A DNA stretch of 64,000 bases. It comes from Planctomycetota bacterium. GTDB taxonomy: Bacteria > Planctomycetota > UBA1135. Position 1 is the stretch's first letter, and every line of letters starts with the position of its first letter. The notes under the pieces are model-generated. The model did not search any database. It saw only the letters and a program-made list of their open reading frames with translations, and was not told where the DNA came from. The translations under genes and the position numbers were made by a program. Below, in pieces: positions 54,882 through 62,900 of the stretch. The DNA lies in the NCBI GenBank assembly GCA_027623295.1, contig JAQBXR010000004.1, positions 62,001 through 126,000 on the forward strand. The letters are read 5' to 3'.

Positions 54882-57800
54882 CTACTCGATAGGAAGCACT
54901 GGAGAAACCTTCCAATCTGGCTTCGGTGGTGCCGGCACCCAAAGCGGGAAGGGTGGTCGTGCAAAAATATCGCCACCAATCTTGCTCACTGCACGTTGCG
55001 TAATGATGGGCGCTTCGGCTGGACCATAAACCTGTTGTTCGACCAGAAAATCAATCAAGTCTTTAAGGATGGGCAAGCGCCCAAGCAGGCTGAAAGTGCG
55101 CAAGGTCACTTTCAGGCTGAGGTTGGTGTCCATATCAATCGAGCCTTCGCCACGCACCTCCAAGAGGCTGTGGTTTAACGCCAGCTTCTCCACGAAGATT
55201 TTTCCCTTGCCATCGACGCGGAAATCTAAAACGCCTTCACTGAACTTAGGCGGAGCAATGCCCGCAACCCGCCAGATGGCATTCAAGACCGGTACGGTGC
55301 CAAGCACTCCATTTTCAATGCGAAGCTGCCCTAATCCTTTACAGAAGGTAGGCGAAGGGCTTGGACTCTTTAAGTACAAGTAACCACCTAGCTGTCCCGC
55401 GAGGGAGCCACTTAAGCCAACTTCCCGGCGCATGCGTTGCAAGGACAAGTCTTCGGCAAAGCAGCGCACTTCAATCGGCGCCTCTTTGGTTAATCCCAAG
55501 GAGAAGTAGCCGCGAACATCTTCTCCATCTCGGGTCTTACCATTGGTCGTCACCTTGCCGCCAAGCAGGGCAAGGTCGACGTCGGTCCAGCGGATGACTT
55601 CGCTATCGATATGGATATGGGCGGAGGCCTTGGACATGCCTACCTCGCCGAGCATGCCAGTGCCGTCGCTTAAATCTAGTTCGGCGCCAAACTCAGAGGA
55701 GTCACTCCACCACGCTTTGCGTACCTCGACTTTTGCATAGCCGCGGGTAATCGGGCTCATACCTGCCATGGAGACATCTTCCAAAATCAGGCCGCCTTCC
55801 GCACGAATACGGGGGGTGCCGCCCGCAGGGAGGATGGCTTCCACGCGCAGATTGTCGGCACGAACGTGGCCATCTAATCCAATCTCGGAGAGAGCCGAAA
55901 GCGCTTCGCGGTTGGCAATCAAAGCCAAACGCGAACTTAAGGAGATCCCTTGTTGGCTGTCCAGAATGGCATTGAGGTTCAGAATGTCGCCCTCAAAGAC
56001 GCCATCAACTTCATGAATGGTCAAGTCGGAGTCTTCACTGAACAAGCGCAGGACATCGGCTTTGAAACCGTCCGGGAATAGATGAATCGCGCCTTGGAGG
56101 CGGAAAGTTTCACCGAGCAGGGCATCGCCCATTTGCATGGTGAGAGGCTTTAGATCCACCCGTGCCTGAAACTCTTCCGGGTTATCCGGGTTGAGCGTTG
56201 CACGTATGTCGGCGGTGCCACTCCAATCCGCGTGGGTGCCCCAAGGCTCCTGCCCAGTCAGCTCCTGCATGCGCAACAACAAGTCACTGCGAATGTGCAG
56301 ATCCTGTCCATAAACCGTGGCCATGGAGAGTCCTGGTTGCGAACTCACGTTATAGCTGGCACGGATATTGCCACCATCGACGCCCGACCAGGTGCGTGGC
56401 AAGCTAATCAAAAACTCTTTCCCACGAAGGGCGATGGCACCCTGACCATTGAGCGGAGTAAAGCTCAATCCCATGTCGGGCCAATCCAGCTTTGCGTTGG
56501 AGCAGGTAAATGTGGTGAGCATGTGCGGCGCGCTTTGGTTGAGCGGCAACACCATTTGAATGCCGTAGCTGACATCGCCCTGCAGGGGGAAGTCGGCAAT
56601 CTCTGGCGGCAGTTGCAAGTATGCAGAAAGCGTGTTCATTTCGGCAAGGGTTGCTGCCGCGTCTTGACCTTGCAAAGTCATGCGCACCACCGGGTCGATG
56701 CCTTCTTGTGCAGCCTCGCGGGCTTCTCCACTAAGGGTGAAATCGCCGCCCATGACACGCAGCAACCCACCGAAACGTGCTAGCCCAGGAGTCCAGCTGA
56801 ACCACGCGGAATCAGCGTGCATGGGAAGGGGAAGTAAGCCTGGAATGGCATCTAAGTTGGTGCCTTCCCCGCGGATGCCAACGCCAAAATCCTTGCCGTC
56901 GTAGCGCAACAAGACCTCAATCCCGGCGGTTCCATTGGAGGGGCTGCCCAAGTCTCTCCACAAGCGTGCGATTTCTGGGTTGCCGGTTAAGGCGTGGTTG
57001 ATTTTTGCATCGAGAGTTACATTCTCGGCAGTCAGGTCGAGTGCGAACTCCACTTCTTCCGGACGGAAATCAAAAGTTCCCGTGGCCCAGGCGTTTCCGG
57101 TTTCGCCAGCATCGGTTTCGCCAAGGAACAGCAGAGTTTTGTTGCCGGTGACCATGTGGCCGTGTTGCACGTTCACCGGGTAAGGGAATGAAATTCGGCT
57201 TCCATCTTCCTCGTCTAAGAAGCCGCGGTAGGTGAGCGCGGTGTCGGTGGCATCTACATGCAGCGACCAATCAAAGCCCAACTCCTCATTCCATTGCGCG
57301 GCGAACTCGGTCTGGGGATAACCACGAGGTTCCAGCCCTTTTACGATGGCCCCCACATCGGGAAGAATACTGTCGAGCCAATCGACCAACTCCTCGGTCA
57401 CTTCGAGGCCTTCCCCGCGCACTGCAAAACCGACCTCGGGTTGCTCGCCATTGGTCAGGCGGATGGCGCCACCGCCCGCAAAATCGCCATGTGCTTCGGA
57501 GCCGTGTAAGGAAAACTGTATACCGGTATGGTTGTCGCCCTCAAAATCCATGCCCAGCTTGGAAGTGCGAATGTCATAAGGCGGGTACTCCAGTTGGGCC
57601 AGAGCTAAAGAACCCTGGAGTTTGGCTAGGCCGAGTCCTTCTGCGGTTCCGTTGGCTTCGGCGCGTAGACTTAAATGGCCTCCAACCCAGGGCAAATCGG
57701 GGTGCGCCAACACCGCCCAATCTTCGACAACACGAACATCCGCCGCCAGGGCAACAGTCCATGCAGCAAAACCTTGGGTGGCTTCCAGGTGGAAATCAAA

Positions 57801-58346
57801 GGCGCCGGTTGCCGGCAAACTGGCTTGGCTGTTAACCGCAAAACGAGAACCTTGCGCAGAGAGATAGCCCTTCACTTGCGCATTCCCCACTTGATAAACG
57901 CGTTGTTCCTCATCGGTCCAACGCAATTGACTGTCAGCGATTTCTAGCTGCAGAGGAAATGGTTCGGGGTTGTTGGACTTGAGCTTTGCCAAAGACTCCA
58001 GGACTTCCAAGCTCATGTCGCCATCGGCTTCTTGGATTTTTAGCGTGATTGGTTTGCCAAAAGCCTTGCTCCAAGGGCGTAAATCCAGAAAGGCATCGAG
58101 GCGCTCAACGCGTGCTCGATCTAGATCCTTATGGGTGAGGCGTAAATCGGCCATAATGACTTGGCCAAATCCCCAACGAATCGTGGCGCCCTCCGCTTTA
58201 AGGGCGAGCTCTGGTGCGCGCAAAGCAATCGCCCGATTGATGAGCCCAATCGGCAACGGCATAGGGAGATATGCCGTGATGATGAGAAGGCCGGTAAGGA
58301 ATAGCGAAAAACGAGAGACCCGGCCGCGAGGAATCGGGAATCTCAT
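54882..58346 (-). CDS. Very large AsmA-like envelope protein
   Basis: 1,154 residues. After one N-terminal helix (RFSLFLTGLLIITAYLPM) the protein is a long run of beta strands, low in cysteine, with many 'GEGTNLDAI', 'GSIDMDTNLSLKVTLRTF' type repeats, as in AsmA, TamB and DUF3971 proteins that form periplasmic lipid-transport grooves. The C-terminal part, 'DGKGKIFVEKLALNHSLLEV' and 'LGRLPILKDLIDFLVEQQ', resembles the AsmA C-terminal domain. Inner-membrane anchored, periplasmic, and likely to help move lipids to the outer membrane. Its ATG overlaps the alr stop (ATGA), so it follows alr in one operon. Confidence 0.8.
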   Translation of the reverse strand: MRFPIPRGRVSRFSLFLTGLLIITAYLPMPLPIGLINRAIALRAPELALKAEGATIRWGFGQVIMADLRLTHKDLDRARVERLDAFLDLRPWSKAFGKPITLKIQEADGDMSLEVLESLAKLKSNNPEPFPLQLEIADSQLRWTDEEQRVYQVGNAQVKGYLSAQGSRFAVNSQASLPATGAFDFHLEATQGFAAWTVALAADVRVVEDWAVLAHPDLPWVGGHLSLRAEANGTAEGLGLAKLQGSLALAQLEYPPYDIRTSKLGMDFEGDNHTGIQFSLHGSEAHGDFAGGGAIRLTNGEQPEVGFAVRGEGLEVTEELVDWLDSILPDVGAIVKGLEPRGYPQTEFAAQWNEELGFDWSLHVDATDTALTYRGFLDEEDGSRISFPYPVNVQHGHMVTGNKTLLFLGETDAGETGNAWATGTFDFRPEEVEFALDLTAENVTLDAKINHALTGNPEIARLWRDLGSPSNGTAGIEVLLRYDGKDFGVGIRGEGTNLDAIPGLLPLPMHADSAWFSWTPGLARFGGLLRVMGGDFTLSGEAREAAQEGIDPVVRMTLQGQDAAATLAEMNTLSAYLQLPPEIADFPLQGDVSYGIQMVLPLNQSAPHMLTTFTCSNAKLDWPDMGLSFTPLNGQGAIALRGKEFLISLPRTWSGVDGGNIRASYNVSSQPGLSMATVYGQDLHIRSDLLLRMQELTGQEPWGTHADWSGTADIRATLNPDNPEEFQARVDLKPLTMQMGDALLGETFRLQGAIHLFPDGFKADVLRLFSEDSDLTIHEVDGVFEGDILNLNAILDSQQGISLSSRLALIANREALSALSEIGLDGHVRADNLRVEAILPAGGTPRIRAEGGLILEDVSMAGMSPITRGYAKVEVRKAWWSDSSEFGAELDLSDGTGMLGEVGMSKASAHIHIDSEVIRWTDVDLALLGGKVTTNGKTRDGEDVRGYFSLGLTKEAPIEVRCFAEDLSLQRMRREVGLSGSLAGQLGGYLYLKSPSPSPTFCKGLGQLRIENGVLGTVPVLNAIWRVAGIAPPKFSEGVLDFRVDGKGKIFVEKLALNHSLLEVRGEGSIDMDTNLSLKVTLRTFSLLGRLPILKDLIDFLVEQQVYGPAEAPIITQRAVSKIGGDIFARPPFPLWVPAPPKPDWKVSPVLPIE

Positions 58347-59529: not shown

Positions 59530-60636
59530 TTAGCGCCGATGGAAGCCGGTGAGGCCTTCGCCACTGAGGAAATCTAAGGTGTAGGCGCGGATGTGCCCTG
59601 GCAGCGTGTTGCGCGCCTCCTGATGCTTGGCCCAAGTCTCATTATTGAGGCCTTCTTCAGTTTTTGGCACCCGTTCGGCCACCGCCGCAAGAAATTCCTT
59701 GCGGGTTGGGTGTTGTTTGAGAAAAGTGGCCATTCGACGGGAACTATGCCCCATTAAAATCCAGGCCTGATCAAAAGCGGGGGCCACTTCGCCGTAAATG
59801 AGAGGCACTGATCCATTTGGATCGACCATGCGTTGCGCGAGTGCATGATGCAAATCTCGATATTCCCGATAAGCGGCAAAGCGCGCTTTGATTTTCTCGT
59901 AGATGCCATCGTGTTCGGAAGCCGCAATGGGGGATTCCAAACCATCGGAACCCTCGATGTGGCGTAAGAATGCAATCGACTCAACATCGGAAATACCGAA
60001 CTCCACCTGCGAACCCCACATGTCATAAAGGCGAATCTCGTCGTAGACTTTCCCGTTGCGGTCACGGTAAACGTGCTCGAAGTAGTCGGCAATCGGGTCG
60101 AATTCATGTTCAAAGTCCAAACTTCCTTCTGCGAACGCCGAAAACTTTCCGCTATCTGGCCATCGCCCAGCAAGCATGGCAATCACCGTATCGCGCGGTT
60201 TCGCACGGGTTTCCTCGAAGAATTGATTATTGGAATAATCCCAAGCCCAAGTCGCATAGCGGTTGGGTGTTGCGGTGCGTAAATAACGTTTGCGAAAGCT
60301 TTCCCAGGTTTTAGTTTGCACTATGACGTGCTTCGTTTTGAGTTTTAGCGCTGGAGCATATTCCTTTGGAGAATAGGCTAAAAGGGCTTCTCTTGGGTTT
60401 ATAGTGGCATTTCGAAGCCTTCTGTCGTCGAGCAAGGCAAGTGTGGTTTCACACAATGGGTGCTCTTGCCCTAAAACGAAAGGCACCAGTTCTTCAGCAA
60501 TGCGTTCGCGTTCTTCGAGCGGCAAAGAGTCAAACCGGCGCAGAATATTGCCTTCTAGCGAGTCACTTACAGGCTCCAATATGGAGCTTGCGCCGACTTG
60601 CGCGAGTGAAAGGAGGAGCATGGCGATGGATAGCAC
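59530..60636 (-). CDS. Exported protein, function unknown
   Basis: 368 residues from a GTG at 60636, chosen because it begins a signal peptide (VLSIAMLLLSLAQVGASS); an ATG five codons later and a longer frame to 60753 are also possible, the latter overlapping the region before the histone-like gene. The mature part is charged and helical, with 'KTWESFRKRYLRTATPNRYA', 'TWAWDYSNNQFFEETRAKPR' and 'PDSGKFSAFAEGSLDFEHEF'. I recognise no family. It ends 20 bases before alr on the same strand. Confidence 0.7.
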   Translation of the reverse strand: MLSIAMLLLSLAQVGASSILEPVSDSLEGNILRRFDSLPLEERERIAEELVPFVLGQEHPLCETTLALLDDRRLRNATINPREALLAYSPKEYAPALKLKTKHVIVQTKTWESFRKRYLRTATPNRYATWAWDYSNNQFFEETRAKPRDTVIAMLAGRWPDSGKFSAFAEGSLDFEHEFDPIADYFEHVYRDRNGKVYDEIRLYDMWGSQVEFGISDVESIAFLRHIEGSDGLESPIAASEHDGIYEKIKARFAAYREYRDLHHALAQRMVDPNGSVPLIYGEVAPAFDQAWILMGHSSRRMATFLKQHPTRKEFLAAVAERVPKTEEGLNNETWAKHQEARNTLPGHIRAYTLDFLSGEGLTGFHRR

Positions 60637-60807
60637 GCCATGAGGATATCGCCATGAATTTGGATTTTTCGCTTTAATTCGGTATTTCCGCGTTGACTTT
60701 GCAGTTGTGGTGCAAGCACAATCTGTACAGGGAGTGTCGGAAACGGCCTCCAATCACTACTTTCCACCTGTTCGCAGTCCTGCGGACCACAATCAAAAAA
60801 CTGAATC

Positions 60808-61101
60808 ATGGCTGCACTCAAAAAAGCGACTAAGAAAACGGCACCTAAAAAGGCTGCCACGAAAGCTCCTAAGAAAGCCGTTGCAAAGAAGGCTCCTAAG
60901 AAAGCTGCTAAGAAAGGTAATCAGGCCAAAATGGTCGATCTCATCATTTCGAAGAGCCGCACCAAGAACGCAGTCCAAAGCTGCAACGTTTCTGGTGACT
61001 TCTACGGCGCTCTAGATAGCTACGTACGCGAAGCTATCGAAGCTGCAGAAGCACGCGCTTCCGCAAACGGCCGCAAGACTTTGCGTCCACAAGATCTGTA
61101 A
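60808..61101 (+). CDS. Bacterial histone-fold protein with an H1-like lysine-rich tail
   Basis: 97 residues. Residues 1-37 are a flexible basic tail with 15 lysines in the pattern K-K-A-P-K-K-A-A, as in eukaryotic H1 and bacterial H1-like proteins. Residues 40-97 read as a short histone fold: helix 1 (about 41-57, MVDLIISKSRTKNAVQS), loop 'CNVSGDF', long helix 2 (about 63-87, FYGALDSYVREAIEAAEARA) and the loop 2 motif GRKTLRPQDL, where the protein stops, so helix 3 is nearly absent. NxSGDFxxALD and GRKTxRPxDL are the pattern of the short (helix-3-truncated) prokaryotic histones. It probably compacts DNA. It stands alone with a strong terminator, as expected for an abundant chromatin protein. 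Confidence 0.82.
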   Translation: MAALKKATKKTAPKKAATKAPKKAVAKKAPKKAAKKGNQAKMVDLIISKSRTKNAVQSCNVSGDFYGALDSYVREAIEAAEARASANGRKTLRPQDL

Positions 61102-61121: not shown

Positions 61122-61156
61122 GAGGCGCTACCTTTACCGGTAGCGCCTCTTTTTTT
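61122..61156 (+). terminator. Strong intrinsic terminator after the histone-like gene
   Basis: gaggcgctacc-tttacc-ggtagcgcctc, a perfect 11-bp stem with a six-base loop and T7 directly after it: the best terminator in the window. Confidence 0.95.
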
Positions 61157-61295: not shown

Positions 61296-62900
61296 TTAGG
61301 GAGGGGGAAGTGGAATCCCAATGCCCTGCAGGCGCAAGGCCTCTAGGCCTGGATGCTCCGGCATCAAATGGGTAATCCGGAACAGAGAGTTCGCTCTCAC
61401 CGGACCACCCTTGGGGCCTTCTGCTTGCTCTTCGGAAACTAAATCGCATTCCCATTCCCATACGATCTTGCCGGCAGGGTCGACCTCGAACAGCAGTCCT
61501 GGTTCGCCGGAGCAGATCAGCGTGTTGCCATTCGGTAAGCGTTGCACCCCACTAATGAAGCTAGAGAAAAAATCTGCCTTCTCCGGTGCCGTGTAAGTCC
61601 AGGAAGTTTCAGCCGGGCCGAAGCTGCCATCTGCATCACGCAGGTAGGTGCCAGCCTCGTTTCTGACTGGCCACCATTCTTCAATGCTGGAGTAATCACC
61701 ACCTGGACGATCTTCTCCATTGTTGAAGACCATCAGGCCGCCGGCGCCGAGTTGTCCGTCTTCAATCCATTGAACGTCATGCTGCCCGATGAGCACGCGG
61801 TCTTCCAAAGTCCCCATGCCGTATGCCGCAGGATTTCCCCAGCGATAGAGCAAATCCCCGCCTTTGCCGCGACGTCCTCCACTACGGGATGCCGCTTCTG
61901 CGGTGCTGGTGGAGTGGTCGATGATCCAAATCTCATCGAAGGTGCGCACGCTGATGGCAACTTGATCGAGCGTGGCGTTGTAATCGATGGCGTTGGTGTG
62001 CATCCAATCGGCATCGCGAAACTTCTTGCGACGAAGCTCCTTGGCAGTGGGAGGGCCATCGTTTTGGGAGTCCGGCGCGGCATCATGAGGAGGTGGCCCG
62101 GCGGAATCCGGAGGGATGGGTGCGCCGTCATCGCCACCGGCGTAACCGGCGTAACCCATGGCTGCGAGTTGATCCATCAAAGCATCGAGCTCCTCTTCCG
62201 ACTTCAACTCGGGATCGCGGTCGCCGTTGATGTCGATGCGCTCGGGGTGTTCGGCGACCACGCCATAGTGCGGTGCTTCCGGATCGAAATCTTGAATCAA
62301 GTGATCCCAGGAATGCCACTGCCAAACAATCTCGGCGCCATCGGTTCCGAAGGGACGGATTTCATAAAGCGCATCGGGCCAGAACTCTTCACCGCGCAAT
62401 AATTCGGGATCGCGTCCGTTGGCTAAGGCTTCTTCGGCACTGCGTTTCTCCCAACCGATTAACAAGAGGTTGCCGTTGGGCATGGGCTCGATGTCGTGAT
62501 GATGATGACGCTGCCCATCTGCCATGCGGTATTCCCACAGTACGGTGCCATCGGCCGCGATCTCTTGAATGCCTCCGCCAATGCCGCCGCCGGAAAAAGC
62601 GACGTCTTCCTCAATGCGCATGCACCGGTAAAGCGTGCCACGTTCGGTCAAGTAAACCGAGTTGCCCGGCTCCCACTCGGTTTCCCATTGATGCAGGGTC
62701 GTGCCTTCGCGGTCGACAAGGAAGACCTTCTTGCTTTTCAGCGGCGTGATGAGGAGGTAGCCATCTTGCGCCGTGGCGGAGCCCAAACGGTCACGCGCGG
62801 GCGCCGGAATGGGGGTTGGGTCATGCGGGTCAGGCCCGGAATGGGTGCATGCGGCTAGAAGGAGTGGGAGCAGACACGCGTGTTTGGCAAACGGGAGCAT
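61296..62900 (-). CDS. Arylsulfotransferase-like lipoprotein (beta-propeller)
   Basis: 534 residues. Lipoprotein signal MLPFAKHACLLPLLLAAC with lipobox LAAC. The body is a beta-propeller with the sequence style of arylsulfate sulfotransferases (ASST): 'DGYLLITPLKSKKVFLVDRE', 'GQRHHHHDIEPMPNGNLLLI' and later 'WIEDGQLGAGGLMVFNNGED' and 'VQRLPNGNTLICSGEPGLLF', repeated H-D and N-G-N strand patterns. ASST moves sulfate between phenols, using a histidine; here the HHHHD stretch provides candidates. An acidic, proline-rich insert (about 225-290, with calcium-loop-like 'DINGDRDPELKSEEELDALM') is unusual. It may be an enzyme or only a propeller of similar fold. Confidence 0.78.
   Translation of the reverse strand: MLPFAKHACLLPLLLAACTHSGPDPHDPTPIPAPARDRLGSATAQDGYLLITPLKSKKVFLVDREGTTLHQWETEWEPGNSVYLTERGTLYRCMRIEEDVAFSGGGIGGGIQEIAADGTVLWEYRMADGQRHHHHDIEPMPNGNLLLIGWEKRSAEEALANGRDPELLRGEEFWPDALYEIRPFGTDGAEIVWQWHSWDHLIQDFDPEAPHYGVVAEHPERIDINGDRDPELKSEEELDALMDQLAAMGYAGYAGGDDGAPIPPDSAGPPPHDAAPDSQNDGPPTAKELRRKKFRDADWMHTNAIDYNATLDQVAISVRTFDEIWIIDHSTSTAEAASRSGGRRGKGGDLLYRWGNPAAYGMGTLEDRVLIGQHDVQWIEDGQLGAGGLMVFNNGEDRPGGDYSSIEEWWPVRNEAGTYLRDADGSFGPAETSWTYTAPEKADFFSSFISGVQRLPNGNTLICSGEPGLLFEVDPAGKIVWEWECDLVSEEQAEGPKGGPVRANSLFRITHLMPEHPGLEALRLQGIGIPLPPP

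Follow-up and report, generated by a model that had tools for sequence, protein, structure and literature searches.

Results

A conserved single-copy histone gene

The histone gene lies at positions 60808–61101 on the forward strand of the window, the 64,000-nucleotide stretch of planctomycete DNA analysed here, and runs from ATG to TAA. Its product (MAALKKATKKTAPKKAATKAPKKAVAKKAPKKAAKKGNQAKMVDLIISKSRTKNAVQSCNVSGDFYGALDSYVREAIEAAEARASANGRKTLRPQDL) is a 97-residue α3-truncated histone, most likely of the FtF type, that ends in GRKTLRPQDL. Because an in-frame TGA is located at 60802–60804, two codons before the ATG at 60808, this ATG is the only standard start. Downstream of the gene, a strong hairpin with an 11-bp stem and a T-run (61122–61156, forward strand) forms an intrinsic terminator that is predicted to end a single-gene transcript. 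Upstream, a sigma-70-like promoter match at 60693–60722 is within chance expectation. The codon adaptation of the histone gene is 0.77, compared to a window mean of 0.70 and values of 0.69–0.87 for ribosomal genes (resampling P 0.038); the gene thus resembles ribosomal genes in codon use more than it does the window mean, which weakly suggests good expression and high abundance of the protein. The host genome consists of 2.45 Mb in 34 contigs and harbors a single copy of the gene: a profile search of this genome for a second histone found none, and a weak match on contig C1 (E 0.15), which contains an internal stop, was rejected.

We compared the locus across 61 related genomes from 44 genera, the named ones of which are nearly all Planctomycetota metagenome-assembled genomes. 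The histone is encoded in 55 of these genomes (39 of the 44 genera), and across the phylum a profile search detected the histone or a related protein in 122 of 294 genomes. The core is 91–96% identical in the nearest species and is under purifying selection, with dN/dS values of ~0.07 and 0.04 against the two nearest species and of 0.09–0.19 further out. The gene order alr (alanine racemase), conserved hypothetical, histone, tsaB recurs at locus L032 and in eight further family genomes. Given its presence in 55 of 61 relatives, the identity of the core, the low dN/dS and the kept neighbours, the open reading frame is not a chance one, and the histone is a conserved planctomycete core gene, ordinary for its clade.

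Two conserved proteins that lack any Pfam match are encoded on the reverse strand at 59533–60621 and 54885–58346, and both stay beside the histone and alanine racemase genes in the other family genomes compared. Between the histone gene and tsaB lies an arylsulfotransferase-like gene (61299–62900, reverse strand); among the genomes compared, it has this position in no species but the present one and the closest to it (G003).

The C-terminal domain is predicted to adopt an α3-truncated histone fold

The original prediction read the C-terminal part of the protein as a histone fold truncated at helix 3 and called for structure prediction of residues 38–97. An AlphaFold2 model of the monomer, built on a 28-sequence alignment, shows a histone fold in this region with pLDDT values of 92–95 in the core; the segment is 60 residues long rather than the 58 first given, a trivial difference. 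Helix α1 spans residues 49–55 (KSRTKNA; 60952–60972, forward strand), of which Lys49, Arg51 and Lys53 are conserved. Helix α2 comprises the 24 residues 63–86 (60994–61065, forward strand) and is short, as in α3 histones, while helix α3 is reduced to the three residues 94–96 (61087–61095, forward strand). The model thus displays the feature of the α3-truncated class, an α3 of 3–4 residues combined with a shortened α2.

Structural and profile searches agree with this assignment. A Foldseek search of the PDB placed HTkC (9F2C) and HLp (9QT0, 9QT1) at the top, with target-normalised TM-scores of 0.80–0.82 and 0.85–0.87, respectively, and rmsds of 1.2–1.3 Å, followed by HBb (TM 0.75–0.79). The Foldseek E-values are modest (0.002–0.02), in line with a query that consists of a 57-residue domain and a long disordered tail. 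The profile search returned the same proteins with E-values of 1.8e-12 for HTkC, 1.4e-10 for HLp and 1.4e-6 for HBb; in a single-sequence search of the PDB only HTkC was clear, and HLp and HBb could be ranked only with a profile. Scans of the protein against Pfam and NCBIfam gave no meaningful match (the best, at 13 bits, was unrelated), so that library scans alone miss this histone. Matches of the histone profile to eukaryotic H2B (E ~0.005–0.03) were set aside as at least partly composition driven; they span profile positions 2–81 and include the tail.

Conserved residues point to an FtF-type tetramer

HLp tetramers are held together by Arg49, Asn53 and Arg55 (Hu et al. 2025, PMC12701072). 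The corresponding residues of the planctomycete histone are Arg83, Asn87 and Arg89 (61054–61074, forward strand), which are kept in 60, 61 and 61 of 61 homologues, respectively. The protein also contains an RxTxxxxD motif (RKTLRPQD; 61072–61095, forward strand), in which Arg89 and Asp96 correspond to the RD clamp of loop L2; Arg89, Thr91 and Asp96 are invariant in all 61 homologues. Two minor HLp contacts, Ser52 and Thr61, are not kept, the planctomycete protein having Ala86 and Gln95. HTkC carries a glutamate at the Asn87 position, so this residue is a marker of the FtF type and not a strict requirement.

A different possibility is that the protein resembles the bacterial dimer HBb (Bd0055): as a dimer it would bend DNA or coat it end-on, and the tail would contribute affinity. 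HBb is itself a significant match by profile and fold, and bacterial dimers occur in Planctomycetota too (PMC11390915). The FtF structures outscore HBb by both sequence and fold, however, and the bacterial dimers are described as lacking the interface arginine and asparagine (Schwab et al. 2024, PMC11390915). Indeed, HBb has serine and aspartate at the aligned positions, whereas the planctomycete protein has both interface residues. We therefore consider an HBb-like dimer unlikely. Since Arg83, Asn87 and Arg89 are kept and HBb differs at the first two, we file the planctomycete histone as FtF type; this is the most likely assignment, and a tetramer would be expected from the three residues together with homology. 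The protein likewise departs from nucleosomal core histones, which have a full α3, a long α2 and a four-helix bundle, in its three-residue α3 and 24-residue α2. It also departs from H1-like (Hc1) proteins, which consist of lysine/alanine repeats without a histone fold, in that the fold is present.

We also considered that the histone fold has been reused off chromatin, for RNA binding or in a link to the ribosome or translation given the proximity of tsaB, with the tail serving as a generic basic extension. Polybasic tails also bind RNA, and the neighbourhood of tsaB and alr is indeed fixed. These neighbours, though, have unrelated housekeeping functions and lie on the opposite strand, the RKT motif and the basic residues of α1 are kept, and the closest relatives of known structure, HLp and HBb, are DNA binders that were crystallised on DNA (PMC12701072). 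Such a role is very unlikely, and a DNA-binding FtF histone remains the preferred reading.

The basic tail is labile in length and conserved only in composition

The fold is preceded by an N-terminal tail rich in lysine, alanine and proline (residues 1–40; 60808–60927, forward strand), which is predicted to be disordered (pLDDT about 49–55). The model thus bears out the proposal of a lysine-rich tail joined to a histone fold, and residues 1–37 do contain exactly 15 lysines, as reported, together with 12 alanines, three prolines and three threonines and no acidic residue. In the family of the window's histone (f1), tails have a median length of 44 residues and range from 3 to 58, while those of families f5, f6 and f8 measure 15 (12–20), 30 and about 36 residues. 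In all tails of more than 10 residues, 27–58% of the positions are lysine or arginine, and no motif beyond composition is conserved among the homologues. In two species of one genus (g11; L021 and L025), which retain the core and the FtF residues, the tail is gone, and the proteins start with MADLIISK and MSDLIISK almost at the fold.

Among more distant homologues from planctomycetes, most begin with MAKKK or MAARKK and carry basic tails of varied length, and a few lack a tail. Outside Planctomycetota, the related histone of Bacteriovorax sp. DB6_IX (L049:4872 onward) has a lysine-rich tail too (MAKKKTAKKATKKATKK). Because these homologues also carry tails, the extension is a common and labile one and not a fusion invented here. 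The lability of the tail is more in keeping with a tuning of charge than with a tail code of the eukaryotic kind.

The charge of the core varies with the tail. Core net charge is ~+6 in homologues with short tails and ~+3 in those with long tails (Spearman −0.73, n = 59), a correlation that is mostly between clades and is marginal after phylogenetic correction (r −0.32, one-sided P 0.037, from independent contrasts computed on a FastTree tree of the core). This hints at, but does not prove, a DNA-holding role shared between tail and core.

Could the tail instead serve, like its eukaryotic counterparts, as a regulated platform on which lysines are acetylated or otherwise modified to switch chromatin? 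The tail has many accessible lysines, and lysine acetylation is common in bacteria. On the other hand, only the composition of the tail is conserved, its length runs from 3 to 58 residues within a single order, with one genus tail-less, and the adjacent genes scanned include no modifying enzyme. The original prediction had raised tail acetylation and pointed to a GNAT domain encoded in the window; no GNAT was present among the immediate neighbours scanned, and one elsewhere in the window does not by itself show a link to the histone. A regulated tail of this kind is highly improbable.

HU and a free-standing H1-like protein in the same genomes

HU-family proteins are present in 61 of 61 genomes, including the host of the histone described here, and a replacement of HU by the histone was rejected given this distribution. 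On contig C15 of the host genome (L071:74–376), just upstream of HU (L071:504–776), we observed a free-standing H1-like protein of 100 residues with KKKVA/KKTA repeats, the start of which (MAARKKATKKKAAKK) is much like the histone tail. Near an HU gene, five of six other family genomes checked carry an equivalent protein of 88–168 residues and roughly 48% lysine.

Discussion

Taken as a whole, the protein is probably an FtF histone that forms tetramers wrapping ~60 bp of DNA, with disordered cationic tails that add DNA affinity and compaction, and that works beside HU. Two chains would first form a handshake dimer, and two dimers would then join face to face through Arg83, Asn87 and Arg89, at the end of α2 and in loop L2. 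For the HLp tetramer the wrapped length is about 60 bp (PMC12701072), within the roughly 50–60 bp expected of FtF histones, and by homology the planctomycete tetramer would bind DNA without sequence preference and wrap a roughly similar length. Each chain would contribute a flexible tail of ~40 residues and about +15 charge, four per tetramer. The tails would most likely neutralise DNA and hold it at the entry and exit points or on neighbouring duplexes, leading to higher affinity and compaction. In this way, tail length may work like a charge dial that evolution can turn, complementing the charge of the core, and the histone would function beside HU and not in its place.

A broader view, which we offer only as a possibility, treats the tail in this planctomycete order as an evolvable charge module of 12–58 residues on a fixed fold: core charge falls with increasing tail length, and one genus has dropped the tail. 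Together with HU and the free-standing H1-like protein, it might make up a three-part chromatin of wrapping core histone, linker-like protein and HU, independent of that of eukaryotes. The FtF structures that we found, HTkC and HLp, have short or no tails, though surveys list tailed FtF histones. The present family offers a natural series of tails, 0 to about 58 residues long and attached to an almost unchanged core, for testing the role of a tail outside eukaryotes, and the genomes concerned also carry H1-like and HU partners.

Among known systems, HLp of Leptospira perolatii (bacterial FtF; PDB 9QT0–9QT2; PMC12701072) shares the α3-truncated fold, the R/N/R triad and the RD clamp. Its core is about 30% identical, its N-terminus is short compared to the ~40-residue lysine-rich planctomycete tail, and Leptospira lacks HU (PMC12701072), which the planctomycete genome has. 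The best match by sequence and fold is archaeal HTkC of Thermococcus kodakarensis (FtF; PDB 9F2C; 38–39% identity), which has a glutamate for Asn87 and whose chain begins a few residues before α1 and thus has no tail of planctomycete length. HBb of Bdellovibrio bacteriovorus, a dimeric bender or coater that is 21–22% identical, shares the fold class and the RKT..D motif but not the equivalents of Arg83 and Asn87.

The original prediction regarded the joining of tail and fold as noteworthy, but this combination is already published for bacterial FtF histones (Schwab et al. 2024, PMC11390915). That survey states that most bacterial FtF histones are tailed, that the tails are mostly positively charged and H3-like, and that Planctomycetota are among the main bearers of bacterial FtF histones; relative to the tailed histones described there, we identified no difference in kind. 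A literature search for a study devoted to planctomycete histone tails found none. The planctomycete histone is thus a clean example of the kind of bacterial histone described in 2024–2025 and not a new design. Eukaryotic core histones likewise carry a basic disordered N-terminal tail ahead of the histone fold, and in composition and position the proposed recreation of their design holds. It does not extend to the labile length of the tail or to a fold nearest to FtF tetramers: compared to eukaryotic core histones, the planctomycete protein has a shorter α2, an α3 of three residues and an unconserved tail sequence, and their nucleosomal four-helix-bundle interface is not expected in it.
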